Assembly: GCF_007197575.1 (NCBI RefSeq)
Contig: NZ_CP041616.1
Coordinates: 1,922,001 to 1,986,000, forward strand
Length of the DNA: 64,000 nt
Reading direction: 5' to 3'
Source: Ornithinimicrobium ciconiae
GTDB lineage: Bacteria; Actinomycetota; Actinomycetes; Actinomycetales; Dermatophilaceae
The notes under the pieces: generated by a model
The model's input: the letters and a program-made list of their open reading frames with translations, nothing else
Told to the model about the DNA's origin: nothing
Database searches by the model: none
Translations under genes and position numbers: made by a program
Shown: piece after piece, positions 32,090 through 39,880 of the stretch
Numbering within the stretch: position 1 is the stretch's first letter
Layout: each line of letters starts with the position of its first letter

Positions 32090-33067
32090 TCAGTCCCGCA
32101 ACGCCTTCCCGGTGAGATGCAGGAAGACCGACTCCAGGTTGGGCCGGCTGATCTGCACGTCGCTGAGCTGCAGACCTGCGGACGTCGCCGTCGTGACGAT
32201 CTGCGCCACGGCCGTCGGTGCGTCGTGCACCGTCAGCTGCAGGCGTCCCCGCTCGGCGTCGACCTGGGCGACCGATGACAGCCCTCGGAGCGCCTCGGCA
32301 GCGGCAGTCGTGTCACCGGACCCGGTGAGCTGGATGTTGTCGACCCCGCCGGTGAGCTGGATCAGCTCGCTGCGGGTCCCCTCGGCCTGCAGCGTGCCGG
32401 AGTCGATGATGCCGATGCGGTCGCACAACCGCTCGGCCTCCTCCATGTAGTGCGTCGTGTAGATCACGGCCATGCCCTCACCGGACAGGTTCTCCACCGA
32501 CTCCAGGATGGCGTTGCGTGATTGCGGGTCCACGCCCACGGTCGGCTCGTCCAGGATCAGCAGGGTCGGCTTGTGCAGCAACCCGATGCCGATGTTGAGC
32601 CGACGCTTCATGCCGCCGGAGAACTCCTTGGTCGGATCCTTGGCGCGGTCGGCGAGTCCGGTGAGCTCAAGGACCTCACCCACCCGGGACTTCAGGTCGT
32701 TGCCGGCCAGGCCCTGCAGCTTGCCGAAGAAGGTGAGATTCTCACGAGCGCTCAGGTCGGGATAGATCGCCAGGTCCTGAGGCACGAGCCCCAGGTGCCG
32801 TTTGGGCGCGACCTTCGTCGGGCCCATCTGCTGTCCGAGGACCATCACGGTGCCCTCGTCGGGCTCCAGCAGCCCGCAGACCATCGAGATGGTGGTGGTC
32901 TTGCCGGCACCGTTGGGTCCCAGCAGTCCGTAGGTCTCGCCGCGCGCCACCCGGAAGGACACGTCGTTGACGGCGGTCAGGTCGCCGAAACGGCGGACGA
33001 GACCGTCGACCACCAGGACGTCGTGCCCGTCCTGTGTGGCCTGCTGCCGCTCTGCTGTCTGTGTCAT
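32090..33067 (-). CDS. ABC exporter ATP-binding protein (DrrA-like)
   Basis: The 325-residue protein carries all nucleotide-binding motifs: Walker A GPNGAGKTT, Q-loop LVPQDLAIYPDLS, signature EFSGGMKRRLNIG, Walker B LLILDEPTVGVD and the switch His in YTTHYMEEAERLC. The C-terminal 90 residues form the extra domain found in DrrA/CcmA-type exporters. It is the first gene of a three-gene unit with the two ABC-2 permeases. ATG 33067 is chosen over the open upstream frame because the family starts near residue 16. A direct repeat TGTCACAA (33145 and 33168) lies about 80 nt upstream and may be regulatory. Confidence 0.92.
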   Translation of the reverse strand: MTQTAERQQATQDGHDVLVVDGLVRRFGDLTAVNDVSFRVARGETYGLLGPNGAGKTTTISMVCGLLEPDEGTVMVLGQQMGPTKVAPKRHLGLVPQDLAIYPDLSARENLTFFGKLQGLAGNDLKSRVGEVLELTGLADRAKDPTKEFSGGMKRRLNIGIGLLHKPTLLILDEPTVGVDPQSRNAILESVENLSGEGMAVIYTTHYMEEAERLCDRIGIIDSGTLQAEGTRSELIQLTGGVDNIQLTGSGDTTAAAEALRGLSSVAQVDAERGRLQLTVHDAPTAVAQIVTTATSAGLQLSDVQISRPNLESVFLHLTGKALRD

Positions 33068-33263
33068 GTCCGAGTCCTGTTCATCGGTGAAATCCCCACG
33101 TCGGCCAGCGTAGGCGCCCACCCACCCCAGCGCACAGGGATATCTGTCACAAAGCCGATAGCAGATGTGTCACAAGCGATCCCGTGGTCGTGGTGGGCCC
33201 ACAGGTATCGCGAGTCACGTGCGCCATCCACGCACCCCGGGTGCGGACCGATAATCTCGGTCG

Positions 33264-35456
33264 ATGAGTCGTGTGATCTTCATGTGCGGCCCCTCGGGGT
33301 CGGGCAAGTCCACCTATGCGCGCGAACTTGAGGCCTCCGGGATGCTCCGGCTCTCCTTCGACACCGAGCTGTGGCGCCGCGGGGTCACCCAGGTGCCCCC
33401 GCCGCAGGACCTCAACGCGCAGGTCGAGGCCGACCTGCGAGCCCAGCTGCTCGAGGCAGTGGCTCAGGGGCGGGACGTCGTGCTGGACTTCGCCTTCCCG
33501 ACCCGCGCGATGCGCGAGGACTACCGTGCCCTGCTCGCACCCGCCGGGGTGGTCCCCGAGACCATCTATCTCGCGACGGACCGCGCCACCGTGATGCACC
33601 GTCTGGCCACCCGCACCGGCGCCGACAGTGACGATCTCGTGCTGGACGATGACCTCTCCGCGCGCCATTACGACCACTTCGAGGCCCCCACCTCGGCGGA
33701 GGGACCGCTGACCGTCCTCACGCACGAGGACCCGGAGCCGGTCACCGGGCCGCGGCCGCGCGTGACACATCAGGTGCTCAACCAGGTGCCGCCACGGGTC
33801 GGCGTCAACGAGTTCCGCAGCAACACCGTGCTCTCCGAGGCGGTGTCGACCTTCGGCGCAGGCTGGGCCGTGCCGCAGTTGGAATCGGTCGGCGAGCTGG
33901 TCGGCTCGGCCGGGTTCCAGGCGGATGCGCGGGCAGCCCACAGCAGCGCGCCGGTGCTGCGCACCCACGACCGCTGGGGCCAGCGCATCGACCAGGTCGA
34001 CTACCACCCGGCATACCACCGCATCATCGGTGCGGCCGTGGCGCACGGCGCCCACACCAGCGCCTGGGCCGACCCGCGAGCAGGCGGGCACGTGGCCCGG
34101 GCGGCGACTTTCATGCTCTTCGCCCAGATCGAGCCCGGTCACGCCTGCCCGGTCTCGATGACCCACGCAGTCGTGCCCGCGCTGCGGCACAGCCCCGCGC
34201 TGGCCGACCGGTGGCTGCCGCGGGCCTACGGGACCGCGTATGACGGCCGGTTGCGCCCTGCGGCGGACAAGCCCGGGGCGCTGTTCGGCATGGCGATGAC
34301 CGAGAAGCAGGGCGGCTCGGACGTGCGCGCCAACCTCACCCGTGGGGTGCACGTCGGAGGAACTGCGGGAGGAGCGGCAGGGGCGGGCACCGAGGATGAG
34401 GATGGAGCGAGCAGCGACGACTACCTGCTGACCGGGCACAAGTGGTTCTGCTCCGCGCCGATGTCGGACGCCTTCCTGGTGCTGGCCCAGACCTCCCGAG
34501 CCGGCGCCGAGGAGGGACTGAGCTGCCTGCTGGTGCCGCGCGTGCTCGAGGACGGCACCCACAACGTCTTCCGCATCCAGCGGCTCAAGGACAAGCTCGG
34601 CAACCGGTCCAACGCCTCCGCCGAGATCGAGCTGGACGGCACCGTCGGACACCTGGTGGGCGAGCCCGGACGCGGGGTGCGCACCATCATCGAGATGGTC
34701 GCCCGCACCCGCCTGGACTGTGTCCTCGGCAGCACGGCCGGGATGCGCCAGTCGGTCGCCGAGGCGCTCTGGCACGTGCGCCACCGCTCGGCCTTCGGCG
34801 CCAAGCTCATCGACCAGCCCGCGATGAGCGCGGTCGTCGCGGACCTGGCGCTGGAGTCGGAGGCCGCGACGCTCACCTCGCTGCGGCTGGCCCAGGCCCA
34901 CGAGGACGACGCCAGCGAGCAGGACGTGCTGTTCGCCCGACTGGCCACGGCCGTGGCGAAGTACTGGATCTGCAAGCGCGGCCCGCACCACGCCTACGAG
35001 GCGCTGGAGTGCCTGGGCGGCAACGGCTACACCGAGGACTTCCCGCTGGCGATGCGCTATCGGGAGCAGCCGGTGATGGCCATCTGGGAGGGGTCGGGCA
35101 ATGTCATCGCCCTCGACGTCCTGCGGGCCATGGGTCGTGAGCCGGAGACCGTGGAGGCGCTGCTGACCGAGCTGGCGCTCGCCGAGGGGACCCACCGCGA
35201 CTATGACGCCCACCTCGGGCGGGTCCGTGCCCTGCTCGCCGCCACGCGCGGCCAGGACCCGGCGGTGCTGCAGGCCGGTGCGCGCCGACTCACGGAGGCC
35301 CTGGCCCTGGCGCTCCAGGCGAGCCTGATGATCCGGCACGCCCCGGCATACTCCTCGGACGCCTTTGTCGCCGCCCGGCTTGGGGAGGACCGCGGCGGCC
35401 AGTATGGCGTGCTGCCGGCAGGCGCAGACGTCGCCGCAATCCTGGCTCGCCACTGA
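33264..35456 (+). CDS. P-loop kinase (AAA_33) fused to AidB-type acyl-CoA dehydrogenase
   Basis: One uninterrupted frame of 730 codons joins two unrelated domains. Residues 1-160 are a zeta-toxin/AAA_33-like P-loop kinase: VIFMCGPSGSGKSTYAREL (Walker A residues 9-17), LSFDTELW, VVLDFAFPTRAMREDY and ARHYDHFEAP. Residues about 167-730 are an AidB-like flavoprotein: THQVLNQVPPRVGVNEF, MAMTEKQGGSDVRANLT, LTGHKWFCSAPMSDAFLVL, ECLGGNGYTEDFPLAMRY and AIWEGSGNVIALDVLR. AidB in E. coli is an adaptive-response protein that binds FAD and DNA. A loop insertion GGTAGGAAGAGTEDED sits at about residue 370. An internal GTG at 33762 could start the AidB part alone, but it lacks a ribosome-binding site. The pairing is unusual for either family. 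Confidence 0.87.
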   Translation: MSRVIFMCGPSGSGKSTYARELEASGMLRLSFDTELWRRGVTQVPPPQDLNAQVEADLRAQLLEAVAQGRDVVLDFAFPTRAMREDYRALLAPAGVVPETIYLATDRATVMHRLATRTGADSDDLVLDDDLSARHYDHFEAPTSAEGPLTVLTHEDPEPVTGPRPRVTHQVLNQVPPRVGVNEFRSNTVLSEAVSTFGAGWAVPQLESVGELVGSAGFQADARAAHSSAPVLRTHDRWGQRIDQVDYHPAYHRIIGAAVAHGAHTSAWADPRAGGHVARAATFMLFAQIEPGHACPVSMTHAVVPALRHSPALADRWLPRAYGTAYDGRLRPAADKPGALFGMAMTEKQGGSDVRANLTRGVHVGGTAGGAAGAGTEDEDGASSDDYLLTGHKWFCSAPMSDAFLVLAQTSRAGAEEGLSCLLVPRVLEDGTHNVFRIQRLKDKLGNRSNASAEIELDGTVGHLVGEPGRGVRTIIEMVARTRLDCVLGSTAGMRQSVAEALWHVRHRSAFGAKLIDQPAMSAVVADLALESEAATLTSLRLAQAHEDDASEQDVLFARLATAVAKYWICKRGPHHAYEALECLGGNGYTEDFPLAMRYREQPVMAIWEGSGNVIALDVLRAMGREPETVEALLTELALAEGTHRDYDAHLGRVRALLAATRGQDPAVLQAGARRLTEALALALQASLMIRHAPAYSSDAFVAARLGEDRGGQYGVLPAGADVAAILARH

Positions 35457-35516
35457 GGCGCCTCTCCGGTCCCCGCCGAGTTGCCGACCCCGGCCTGCCT
35501 GACGGCATACTTCATC

Positions 35517-36524
35517 ATGGTCAGACTGCGCAAGGTCGCACCCGACGACGCCGGGTGGACCCGCCGACGGGCCGGGACGGGCTTCACCTATCTCGACGAG
35601 GACGGTGAACGGTTGCCCGCCGAGGAGGCCCAGCGCCTCAAGGCGCTGGCGATCCCACCCGCCTGGGAGGACGTGTGGATCTGCCCGCATGCCAACGGCC
35701 ACGTCCAGGCCGTCGGCACCGACGACGCCGGGCGCCGGCAGTATCTCTATCACCCCGACTGGCGCGAGAAGCAGGACGAGCTGAAGTTCGAGCGGATCGT
35801 GGAGGCCTCCGAGGTGCTGCCGGACGCGCGGCGCAGGGTCACCCGCGATCTGCGGCGAGAGGGCATGCCGCTCGAACGCGCCTGCGCGACGGCGGTCCGG
35901 ATGCTCGACCTGGGCTACTTCCGCATCGGGCACGACGTCTACACCGATCTCAACGGCTCGTTCGGGCTGACCACGCTGGAGCGTCAGCACGTGCGATCGG
36001 TCCGGGGCGGGCTCCGGTTCTGCTTCGTCGGCAAGGGCGGGATCACGCAGGAGCTGGCGATCGAGGACGAGGACGTCACGACCGCGCTGCGCCAGATGCG
36101 GCGCCGGCGCACCGGCTCCCAGCGGGTGCTGGCATACCGCGGGGACAACGGGTGGCACGACCTGGACGCCGACGAGGTCAACGCCTATCTGGCCGAGCTG
36201 TTTGACGGACGGCTGACGGCCAAGGACTTTCGCACCTGGCACGCCACCGTCCACGCCGCGGTGGCCCTGGCGAGCTCACCGGAGCCGGGCGACACGCTGG
36301 CCTCGCGGCGCCGGGCGGTGAAGGCTGCGGTGGAGGAGGTCTCCGAGTTCCTCGGCAACACACCCACCATCGCCAAGGGCTCCTATATCGACCCCCGGGT
36401 CATCGATCACTATGTGGAGGGCGAGACGGTCTCGGTGCCCAGGGCCACCGGGCGCACCCCCGTGCGTCGGCAGCGGGCGGTCGAGGCTGCGGTGCGCGAC
36501 CTGCTCACGGACGAGGAGGGCTGA
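35517..36524 (+). CDS. DNA topoisomerase IB
   Basis: The 335-residue protein is a poxvirus-like bacterial type IB topoisomerase. It begins LRKVAPDDAGWTRRRAGTGF and holds the conserved PPAWEDVWICP, ACATAVRMLDLGYFRIGHD, GLTTLERQHV, FCFVGKGGITQ and the catalytic Tyr290 in KGSYIDPRV. The enzyme nicks one strand through a 3'-phosphotyrosyl link and relaxes supercoils without ATP. ATG 35517 is preferred, as the homology starts there. The gene is 60 nt after the kinase-AidB fusion on the same strand and may be transcribed with it. Both are DNA-damage or DNA-topology related if AidB acts on DNA. Confidence 0.92.
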   Translation: MVRLRKVAPDDAGWTRRRAGTGFTYLDEDGERLPAEEAQRLKALAIPPAWEDVWICPHANGHVQAVGTDDAGRRQYLYHPDWREKQDELKFERIVEASEVLPDARRRVTRDLRREGMPLERACATAVRMLDLGYFRIGHDVYTDLNGSFGLTTLERQHVRSVRGGLRFCFVGKGGITQELAIEDEDVTTALRQMRRRRTGSQRVLAYRGDNGWHDLDADEVNAYLAELFDGRLTAKDFRTWHATVHAAVALASSPEPGDTLASRRRAVKAAVEEVSEFLGNTPTIAKGSYIDPRVIDHYVEGETVSVPRATGRTPVRRQRAVEAAVRDLLTDEEG

Positions 36525-36613
36525 GGGCGCGCGGGTCACCGCCGGGAGAAGAAAGCCGTGATCTCCCGCGCCGACGGGCCGGGCTTGCTCGAGGGCTGCT
36601 CCGGAGGCATCCG

Positions 36614-37108
36614 CTAGCTCCTCGTGGTCAGTCGGTCGTGCGTCTCGTACAGCCGCCAGAAGGAGCCCGTCGGGAGGGGCTCGCCGTGCAGGGACGCCTC
36701 GAAGTAGGTGAGGTGGGTGATCCACCCGGGCAGGTAGGACCCCGCGAGATCGGCGAGCTCATGGTGCTCCAGGTGCAGGTCCGTGGCTCCGTCCGGCATC
36801 GCGTCGTCGGGCAGCACCGTCTCCAGCTCGATGGTGACCCGTGACGGGGGCTCGTCGGGGAACTGCCACGACATGGCCAGGGACCGGCCGTCCTGTGCGA
36901 CCAGGACGTCACTGCGGCACAGATAGCCGTCCCCGTGGTCGACGACCAGGTGGTCGCCCGCGGTGAACGAGCCGTCCTGGCGCCGCCCGAGCCACTCCGG
37001 AAGGCGGTCCACGTCGGTGAGATGCCGCCATACAGCAGCAGGGCGGGTGGACAGCCTCCACGTCAGGCAGACCACCCCCGGTGCGTCCACGCGAGCAACG
37101 AGAGGCAT
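36614..37108 (-). CDS. SRPBCC (START-like) domain protein
   Basis: The 164-residue protein has the SRPBCC/AHSA1 pattern: LTWRLSTRPAAVWRHLTDVDRLPEWLG at the start (a helix that closes the cavity), a central beta sheet and a C-terminal helix (WITHLTYFEASLHGE). Such proteins bind hydrophobic ligands or act with chaperones; the ligand is unknown. The start at 37108 is selected because the domain begins immediately after. It is divergent from the small acidic protein gene with 85 nt between them. Confidence 0.78.
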   Translation of the reverse strand: MPLVARVDAPGVVCLTWRLSTRPAAVWRHLTDVDRLPEWLGRRQDGSFTAGDHLVVDHGDGYLCRSDVLVAQDGRSLAMSWQFPDEPPSRVTIELETVLPDDAMPDGATDLHLEHHELADLAGSYLPGWITHLTYFEASLHGEPLPTGSFWRLYETHDRLTTRS

Positions 37109-37193
37109 GGTCTGATCCTGCCTGACCCGGCTCCGGCCGTCCGCCGGGGGTCGCCAGCGCGCAGTCCGTCCCGGTCGGTGCGACGCTGAGGAG

Positions 37194-37430
37194 ATGAGTG
37201 ACACGACACCAGACGGGCACCAGGAGCCGGACGAGGCAACGTCCGGCCGTGACGACAGCGGCCAGATCCCCTCCGCGGACCAGGACGTGGCCTCCGGGCA
37301 GCCCTACGACCCGCGCCAGGACCCGGAGACCGACGCGAACCTGTCGCAGGAGAAGGCACCCGCTCAGGAGGGAGTGAACCAGCGCGACCCGGCCGAGGGG
37401 CCGGATGACGAGTCGGCCACCGACGGCTAG
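37194..37430 (+). CDS. Small acidic hypothetical protein
   Basis: The 78-residue product is strongly acidic and rich in Asp, Glu, Pro, Gln and Ser, with no Cys, no hydrophobic segment and no recognised domain; it is likely disordered. The ATG has GAGGAG immediately upstream, which supports real translation. The gene stops in a CTAG palindrome that also contains the parC stop on the other strand. Function is unknown; small acidic disordered proteins of this kind are frequent in Micrococcales. Confidence 0.6.
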
Positions 37431-39880
37431 ACCGACCCGCTCGCCACCTGCGTGATGGGGACGGTCCCGGGGGTGCCGGAGCCGTCGCGCTTGCCGGTGG
37501 CCTCGGGCAGGTCGACGGCGGCCCCGTTGCCGGAGGCAGCCAGCGGGGGAGCGGCGCCCGCCCAGCCGAGCAGGAGGGTGTCCTCACCGCGCAGGAAGCG
37601 GTGGCAGCGCACGCCTCCGGTGGCGCGGCCCTTGGCGGGGTACTCGGCATACGGGGTGACCTTGACGGCGCCGGTCTGGGTGCCGGGCAGTGACCCGGAG
37701 GAGCCGGACACGGTGACCACCACGTTGTCTGCGGCGGGGTCCAGCGCCCAGAAGCCGACCACGGCCGCGCCGGAGGAGAGTTTGATGCCGGCCACGCCGC
37801 CACCGGTGCGGCCCTGCGGGCGCACCAGGTCCGCGCCGAAGTGCAGGAGCTGGCCGTCGTCGGTGACGAAGACCAGGTCCTCGGTGCCGGTGGTCAGCTC
37901 GACGGCGCCGACGACCTCGTCACCGTCCTTGAGGGAGATGACCTCGAACTCGTCCTTGTTGCCCGGATAGTCCGGGTTGACCCGCTTGACGACGCCGGCC
38001 CTGGTGCCCAGGGCCAGGCCCGGTCCGGCGTCGGAGAGGGAGCACAGCGCCAGGGGCAGGGCACCGGCGGGCAGGTCCACGAACGCCGCCAGCGGTGCAC
38101 CGCCGGAGAGGGTGGGGGCGCCGTTGGTCGGTGGCAGGGTGGGCAGCTCGAGGGCGCTGAGCCGCACGATGCTGCCGTCGGAGGTGACGATGCCGACCGA
38201 GCCGCGGGCGGTGGTCCTGACCGCGGAGACGATCACGTCGTGCTTGCGGCGTGCCCCGCCGGTGCCCAGGGGCTCGTCGGTGGAGGTGCGGGCGAGCAGC
38301 CCGGTGGAGGACAGCAGCACCCAGCACGGGTCGTCGGCCACCTCCAGGGGGGTGGTGGCCGCGGCCGTCGCGGAGATCCCGTCGGACTCCAGCAGGACGG
38401 TGCGCCGGGGGGTGCCGTGCTCCTTGGCGACCTGGGCCAGCTCGTCGGAGACGAGGTTGAGCAGCAGCTGGTGGTCCTCGAGCAGTGCGCGCAGGCGCTC
38501 GATCTCCCGCACCAGCTCGTCGCGCTCGGTCTCCAGCTCGATGCGGGAGAACTTGGTGAGCCGGCGCAGCTGCAGATCCAGGATGTAGTTGGCCTGCAGC
38601 TCGGAGAGGTCGAAGACCTGGATCAGCCGCTCCCGGGCGGTGGCCACGTCGTCGGCCGCCCGGATGAGCTGGATGACCTCGTCGATGTCCAGGATGGCGA
38701 TGAGCAGCCCCTCGACCAGGTGCAGGCGCTCCTCCTTGCGGCGCAGGCGGTAGGCCGTGCGGCGGCGCACCACGTCGGTGCGGAACTCGACATACACCGA
38801 GAGGAGCTCACGCAGGCCCAGCGTGCGCGGCTGCCCGTCGACCAGGGCCACGTTGTTGATGCCGAAGCTCTCCTCCATCGGGGTGAGCTTGTAGAGCTGG
38901 GCGAGCACCGCCTCGGGGTTGAAGCCGTTCTTGACCTCGATCACCAGGTGCAGGCCCTTGGTGCGGTCGGTCAGGTCGGTGATATTGGAGATGCCCTGCA
39001 GCTTCTTGGACTGCACGAGGGTCTTGACCTTGTCGATGACCTTCTCGGCGCCGATGAGATAGGGCAGCTCGGTGACCACGATGCCCTTGCGGCGGGCCGT
39101 GATGCTCTCGATCTTGGCGGTGGCGCGGGTGCGGAACGAGCCGCGGCCCGTTTCGTAGGCGTCGCGGATCCCGTCCAGCCCGACGATCCGTCCGCCGAGT
39201 GGCAGGTCCGGTCCCGGCACGAAACGCATCAGGTCATCCAGGCTCGCGTCCGGGTGGGAGATGAGGTGGCGTGCCGCGCCGATGACCTCACCCAGGTTGT
39301 GCGGGGCCATGTTGGTGGCCATGCCGACGGCGATGCCGGACGCACCGTTGACCAGCAGGTTGGGGAAGGCCGCCGGCAGCACCTCGGGCTGCATCAGCTG
39401 GTCGTCATAGTTGGGGACGAAGGTGACGGTCTCCTCGTCCAGGCTGGCCGTCATCAGCAGCGCCGCCGGGGCCGGGCGGGCCTCGGTGTAGCGGCTGGCG
39501 GCCGGGCCGTCGTCGAGGGAGCCGAAGTTGCCGTGCCCGTCGACCAGCGGCAGGCGCATCGTGAACGGCTGGGCCATCCGCACCAGCGCGTCATAGATCG
39601 CGGTGTCACCGTGCGGGTGGTACTTACCCATCACGTCACCCACGACGCGCGAGCTCTTGACGTGGCCCTTGTCCGGGCGCAGGCCCATCTCGTGCATGCC
39701 GAACAGGATCCGTCGCTGCACCGGCTTCAGCCCGTCCCGGGCATCGGGCAGGGCCCGGGAGTAGATCACCGAGTAGGCGTACTCCAGGAAGGCTCCCTGC
39801 ATCTCGTCCCGGACATCGATGTCGACGATCTTCTGCTCGACGTCGAACAGGTCCGGTCCAGGTGGGGTGCGGCGCGCCAT
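37427..39880 (-). CDS. parC: DNA topoisomerase IV-type subunit A (ParC/GyrA)
   Basis: The 817-residue protein is a type IIA topoisomerase breakage-reunion subunit. It shows [18 protein letters not shown], the quinolone-region [18 protein letters not shown], the catalytic Tyr131 in ASRYTEAR and the coiled gate EELRRKE-like segments around [19 protein letters not shown]. The C-terminal domain has pinwheel repeats without a clear GyrA-box (QRRGGKG), which favours ParC over gyrase A. The partner ParE gene is at 7309-9387. The quinolone-resistance region shows G-D-T, the sensitive-type wording at the Ser/Asp positions being unusual in actinobacterial ParC, so no resistance claim is made. The upstream 186 nt contain a three-copy tandem repeat. 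Confidence 0.92.

Follow-up and report, generated by a model that had tools for sequence, protein, structure and literature searches.

Organization of the locus

The window, i.e. the complete stretch of DNA analysed in this study, comprises 64,000 nucleotides of the genome of Ornithinimicrobium ciconiae, which is represented by a single contig of 4.09 Mb. It harbours a gene in which a P-loop kinase of the AAA_33 family is joined to an acyl-CoA dehydrogenase of the AidB/FadE8 type (Table 1). In the window and in three congeners (G009, G018, G019), aidB is flanked by a divergent ABC exporter gene on one side and by the gene for topoisomerase IV/gyrase subunit A on the other, and because both flanks are conserved, the three were regarded as the same locus as that of the window. 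Downstream of aidB, the interval up to the topoisomerase IV/gyrase A gene (35457–37426) is variable; it holds the topoisomerase IB gene and an AHSA1-like gene in the window, other frames in G009 and almost nothing in G019. Topoisomerase IB, to which the first-pass annotation had drawn attention, indeed follows the fused gene, but this link is not conserved: no match was found in the aidB regions of five relatives (L134–L137, L143), and topoisomerase IB was dropped as a partner.

Table 1. Coordinates of the fused gene, its parts and the neighbouring genes (numbering of the window).
Feature	Position	Strand	Basis
Fused gene, 730 aa: AAA_33 kinase and AidB/FadE8-type acyl-CoA dehydrogenase	33264..35456	+	Open frame; Pfam; same architecture in three further clusters
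GATAATCT, directly upstream of the ATG	33250..33257	+	Sequence read directly
Kinase half, residues 1–152	33264..33719	+	Pfam; model pLDDT 91.4; residue check; fold matches
P-loop GPSGSGKST, residues 9–17	33288..33314	+	Translation; G9, G12, G14 and K15 among invariant columns
PTR, residues 79–81, in the loop after strand 72–74	33498..33506	+	STR in P0002–P0004
Linker, residues about 153–168 (~16), predicted disordered	33720..33767	+	pLDDT <50 at 155–172; alignment A1; codons
AidB half, residues 169–730: AidB_N, middle and C-terminal dehydrogenase domains	33768..35453	+	Pfam; NCBIfam; PDB matches
Divergent ABC transporter ATPase (ABC exporter)	32090..33067	-	Conserved flank; start set by relatives' ATG
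DNA topoisomerase IB	35517..36524	+	Pfam; absent beside aidB in relatives compared
DNA gyrase/topoisomerase IV subunit A	37427..39880	-	Conserved far flank

Translation of the fused gene confirmed one frame with zero internal stops, and the Pfam matches assigned to it an AAA_33 kinase and a full AidB-like dehydrogenase, as had been claimed from first inspection; the P-loop was also found at the residues given there. The G+C content at third codon positions is 0.88–0.93 per 40-codon block over codons 1–200, which cover the kinase, the linker and the start of AidB. Past codon 200 it is 0.88–0.97, with two lower values, namely 0.78 at codons 361–400 and 0.64 in the last block, which is short. Since a stretch of 165 codons also stays open in 5.8% of 5,000 base shuffles, an open stretch of this length by itself is weak evidence, and the case for a real fusion is carried by the conservation of the protein rather than by the open frame alone. 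The octamer GATAATCT is a candidate −10 element and could belong to a leaderless transcript.

Recurrence and rarity of the fusion

A protein search was performed over 5.8 billion predicted proteins, of which the 7,999 candidates sharing most words were scored. The same domain order was present in three other clusters, namely P0002 (81% identity, 712 aa), P0003 (79%, 728 aa), and P0004 (75%, 705 aa). Among the four fusions, identity amounts to 78–81% for the kinase halves and 77–84% for the AidB halves, so that both halves are conserved to about the same degree. The comparison of length and linker that had been proposed in the first-pass annotation thus gave four proteins of 730, 712, 728 and 705 aa, but linkers that vary in both length and sequence. 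The linker occupies the place at which aidB begins in unfused relatives (alignment A1).

Codons 145–186 include three in-frame start codons, GTG in each case, at residues 167, 171, and 175. Restarts at 167 and 175 are not conserved, because other fusions have other residues there (A in P0003 and T in P0004 at position 167; A in the other three fusions at position 175). Residue 171 is V in every row of alignment A1, but it is part of the conserved TH-V-NQ start of AidB. Internal restart as the source of a separate AidB was set aside, although it might still occur in the window protein itself.

For a second search, residues 1–165 were used as query against targets of about 400 to 1280 aa. The nine matches obtained were P0002–P0004 and six proteins with the kinase joined to other partners. 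Fusions of this kinase subfamily to a metallo-beta-lactamase fold, a methyltransferase, an EamA transporter and others (P0122–P0126) indicate that the subfamily may be promiscuous; some of these fusions may be gene-calling artefacts. The domain-architecture search that had been suggested as a check accordingly recovered the AidB fusion in P0002–P0004, but within the genus in only 1 of 31 genomes, that of the window itself. In 396 genomes of the order, no other listed kinase place adjoins a listed aidB place, as judged by eye among the matches listed. Going by these protein comparisons, the AidB fusion is real but rare. No enzyme of this kind was found in titles and abstract openings of the open-licence literature.

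Two further possibilities were considered and dropped. A role in anti-phage defence was rejected, the fusion having no PADLOC match at E up to 0.01. Carriage of the kinase by viruses was likewise dropped, as 0 of 32 pattern-matching stretches encoded a relative of it.

The kinase half

The Pfam match to AAA_33 (PF13671) covers residues 4–125 with 80.6 bits, compared with a cut-off of 27. The description as zeta-toxin-like was not supported, since Zeta_toxin (PF06414) is absent from the Pfam matches of the window protein at E up to 0.001; such a match is found for a paralogue, a second, stand-alone AAA_33 kinase at 3.21 Mb of the same genome, which is 51% identical to the window kinase. This paralogue (L142:8749-9201, G000) is identical, over the protein stretch compared, to a kinase of another species of the genus (L144:7529-7981, G001), which suggests a recent transfer of the stand-alone gene. 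Two further observations concern the surroundings of stand-alone kinases. In G007, a stand-alone kinase of the same subfamily is encoded in overlap with the end of a gene for peptide methionine sulfoxide reductase (PMSR match; L140:8573-9852), and in G019 a frame resembling this reductase frame lies upstream of the kinase (L139:7108-7797).

The closest relatives of the kinase half are AAA_33 "predicted kinases" of ~155 aa from Nocardioides and other actinobacteria (62–81% identity among the 120 listed). Those listed are stand-alone proteins, the search having been restricted to proteins of similar length, and in the rows aligned they have the P-loop and core residues of the window kinase. This core comprises Walker A, D33, D75, R84/R88, and R113/R117, which we take to be catalytic residues, and it is present in the window protein. 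A kinase alignment (A4) was built from 40 rows including the window kinase and the stand-alone protein P0128, while P0002–P0004 were left out. Its 24 invariant columns, kept by the window kinase and P0128 by construction because both are rows of A4, are unchanged in all three fusions outside the alignment. A difference was found in the loop after strand 72–74: the fusions have PTR or STR there, whereas WSR is present in 117 of the 120 listed stand-alone kinases, STR in two (P0189, P0213), and WSQ in one (P0199). PTR/STR may thus be the mark of a shifted substrate.

The model of the kinase half has the polynucleotide kinase fold, and among the solved structures closest to it are polynucleotide kinases and seryl-tRNA(Sec) kinase. 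With mammalian PNKP, T4 Pnk, C. thermocellum Pnk, and seryl-tRNA(Sec) kinase, the fold is common to nearly the whole kinase domain, at an identity of just 15–25%. The profile similarity to PNKP is weak, and the DNTN motif of the mammalian enzyme, presumably part of the acceptor site, is replaced by DFAF at the aligned position of the window kinase. The small-molecule kinases PFKFB3, gluconate kinase and APS kinase match the window kinase well, too. Hence, the proposal of a nucleic-acid-modifying kinase in the first-pass annotation is compatible with the fold, but the fold does not single it out.

The AidB half

Hallmarks of AidB are FAD binding, a tetrameric state, and a weak isovaleryl-CoA dehydrogenase activity. 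In the window protein, Pfam matches were obtained for AidB_N at residues 173–327 (183.8 bits; cut-off 22.9), Acyl-CoA_dh_M at 342–458 (52.8 bits; cut-off 33.3), and Acyl-CoA_dh_1 at 469–623 (89.3 bits; cut-off 22.4). The top NCBIfam match was PRK11561, the model for E. coli AidB, with 462.8 bits and thus under its cut-off of 545; by this measure the window protein is an AidB homologue outside the E. coli AidB equivalog class. Top PDB sequence matches were 5ez3 and E. coli AidB 3djl (E 3.4e-115 for 3djl). A FadE cluster of Mycobacteroides abscessus (P0103), which may represent the FadE8 orthologue, is 66% identical to the window protein.

E. coli AidB and M. smegmatis FadE8 have the AidB_N and dehydrogenase domains found in the window. 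Unlike the window protein, E. coli AidB is without a kinase, and for FadE8 none is mentioned in the passages of PMC7432924 on this protein. According to PMC3546729 (2012), E. coli AidB is a FAD-containing tetramer with a dehydrogenase activity ~1000-fold under that of known acyl-CoA dehydrogenases, which is probably not its role, and its protection of DNA persists without the DNA-binding domain. FadE8 is described in PMC7432924 as FAD-binding, as a weak dehydrogenase and as shifting DNA in a gel. As to the DNA binding that had been attributed to AidB, the FadE8 homologue thus shows it, though the C-terminal domain of the window protein has a net charge, a crude measure, of −2 versus +2 in E. 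coli AidB. The whole AidB half is net acidic (−9).

A second kinase family upstream of aidB in relatives

In G018, G019, G023, and in G048, a member of another family, a distinct P-loop kinase gene overlaps the start of aidB by the four bases ATGA. In G009 this overlap is kept by a FlaR-like kinase frame without the P-loop half (L134:8592-8915), which is perhaps retained only as a translational lead-in. Altogether, the ATGA overlap was present at all five loci read and the P-loop at four of them. The overlapping kinase resembles the FlaR "DNA topology modulation" protein (PRK08118, 75.9 bits, under the cut-off of 215). These small kinases belong to a family other than the AAA_33 of the window and are encoded by separate, unfused genes. 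FlaR-like kinases also occur on their own: G007 has one at this locus, where aidB is missing, and at five other FlaR-like loci of the genus examined no aidB match was found. Of 24 genomes searched from the family to which G048 belongs, one had a full-length aidB match, together with a FlaR-like kinase, as if the pair had moved jointly between families.

The range of the association was examined by a census of aidB in the order, which gave 82 other genomes with aidB at E up to 1e-100. Outside the clade, neither kinase was found upstream of aidB in any of the best 28 from these 82 genomes, one of which offered just 574 bases. Additionally, P-loops were sought at 95 loci, some of them from the clade, for which enough upstream sequence was available; the scan covered residues 1–80 of frames called mechanically, and the window and seven loci duplicating others or holding the window were left out. 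Four of the 95 were flagged, two from the clade (L136, L137) and two others, of which L041 is by eye a chance match in a TetR-looking frame and L082 an unrelated NTPase. L135 and L012 were missed by the scan, and the FlaR-like kinase there was found by tblastn. Among the loci examined, the kinase–aidB link is confined to one clade.

The window genome has AAA_33 or AAA_18 matches at 13 distinct places at E up to 0.001 (places counted, not genes) and a FlaR-like kinase match at one further place. With so few places in 4.09 Mb, two different small kinases at one spot are unlikely by chance. Judging from these gene neighbourhoods, coupling of AidB to one or the other of two different small kinases recurs within this clade, and in the window kinase and AidB are merged.

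A probable split form and the history of the fusion

Among stand-alone proteins, the kinase half was matched best by P0128 (159 aa, 81%) and the AidB half by P0005 (557 aa, 84%). For each of them a single contig is listed, and in both cases the length (6,630 bases) and the source are the same; they are therefore probably neighbours, and the kinase–AidB pair of the window probably exists in a split form, too. P0128 ends with ...TTGDQS, P0005 begins with MTHPRPGVTHEV, and the fused P0002 reads ...TPDQAAITRPRPRVTHAV across the same place. At the protein level, this junction would be the expected trace of a merger of frames at an ATGA overlap.

Kinase trees were calculated with 37 and 32 rows, the bootstrap being unsettled in both. 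In the 37-row tree, the fusion kinase halves form one clade against 33 other rows (99/99), and in the 32-row tree P0128 is sister to the fusion kinases (85/84). For AidB, trees of 47 and 20 rows were built from rows picked from the 120 listed matches and the loci. In the 20-row tree, in which many branches are weak, the AidB halves of the fusions do not group together, and forcing all four into one clade costs 30.5 log units (p-AU 0.015). Therefore, either aidB recombined between fused and unfused forms, or the fusion arose more than once. The joint alignment A5 was used, while A3 was set aside because the stand-alone kinases were only 20–27% identical in it, which was taken as misalignment.

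Discussion

We consider the product of the fused gene a genuine bifunctional enzyme (probability about 0.7), in which a P-loop kinase with a polynucleotide-kinase/PSTK fold is connected by a short flexible linker to a flavoprotein of the AidB/FadE8 type. The architecture is a new combination of known parts. It would have originated from an overlapping kinase–aidB pair by merger of the two frames at the overlap; the two proteins would already have been co-produced and have acted together before the fusion. The first-pass annotation had mentioned loss of a stop between neighbouring genes as the less exciting option; such a merger is the most likely origin, but it is not peculiar to this assembly, as four protein clusters have the merged form. 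Separate genes in relatives, or a fusion limited to one assembly, had been named there as grounds for refutation. Unfused relatives do exist, but the fusion is found beyond this assembly.

Cooperation of the two halves is inferred from three observations: one position is taken by either of two kinases, the overlap with aidB is conserved, and the pair appears to have been transferred as a unit. Counting against it are the restriction of the association to one clade, the occurrence of FlaR-like kinases where aidB is missing, and the ease with which the kinase subfamily joins other partners. Mechanistically, the kinase might phosphorylate a hydroxyl group of a compound that the flavoprotein consumes or produces, or of another molecule delivered to the flavoprotein. 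If the AidB half is tetrameric like E. coli AidB, a single flavoprotein core would carry four kinases. The most likely context, as AidB and FadE8 suggest by analogy, is protection against stress.

An error of sequencing or assembly would agree with the occurrence of the fusion in a single genome of the genus; it was rejected as scarcely credible, because P0002–P0004, which come from other data sets, carry the same architecture at 75–81% overall identity, and the coding signal runs unbroken across the junction. Unlikely, yet of more weight, is a neutral merger, in which chance neighbours with unrelated jobs were joined and the product was tolerated because both halves fold and work alone. The several unrelated fusion partners of the kinase subfamily would be expected then, as would the variable linkers, the aidB genes without a kinase neighbour elsewhere (0 of 28 examined) and the FlaR-like kinase without aidB in G007. 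It explains less well why the place next to this aidB is taken by kinases of two families, with a conserved ATGA overlap in the case of one family, why the kinase and aidB of the window probably also exist as a split pair, and why the FlaR–aidB pair seemingly moved jointly between families.

The kinase might also act on nucleic acids and be brought to DNA by AidB, where it would heal 5′-OH ends or phosphorylate RNA near AidB-bound sites. The fold would suit this function, which we nevertheless regard as improbable in view of DFAF in place of DNTN of mammalian PNKP, the likewise good matches to PFKFB3, gluconate kinase and APS kinase, and the net acidic AidB half.

Returning to the bifunctional enzyme, a more far-reaching version of it can be offered tentatively, as one that we would sooner doubt than accept: a two-step kinase–flavoenzyme system, in which AAA_33 and FlaR-like kinases would, at one locus of this clade, be interchangeable partners of AidB, the fusion would be the Rosetta-stone form revealing the partnership, and the phosphorylated molecule would be the missing substrate or product of AidB. 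If the kinases are interchangeable in this way, what AidB needs would be the phosphorylation itself. For AidB, whose flavin role is left unsettled in PMC3546729, the kinase fusion together with the second, overlap-coupled kinase provides a concrete partner activity to test, and this one locus allows the comparison of coupled genes with a fused gene.
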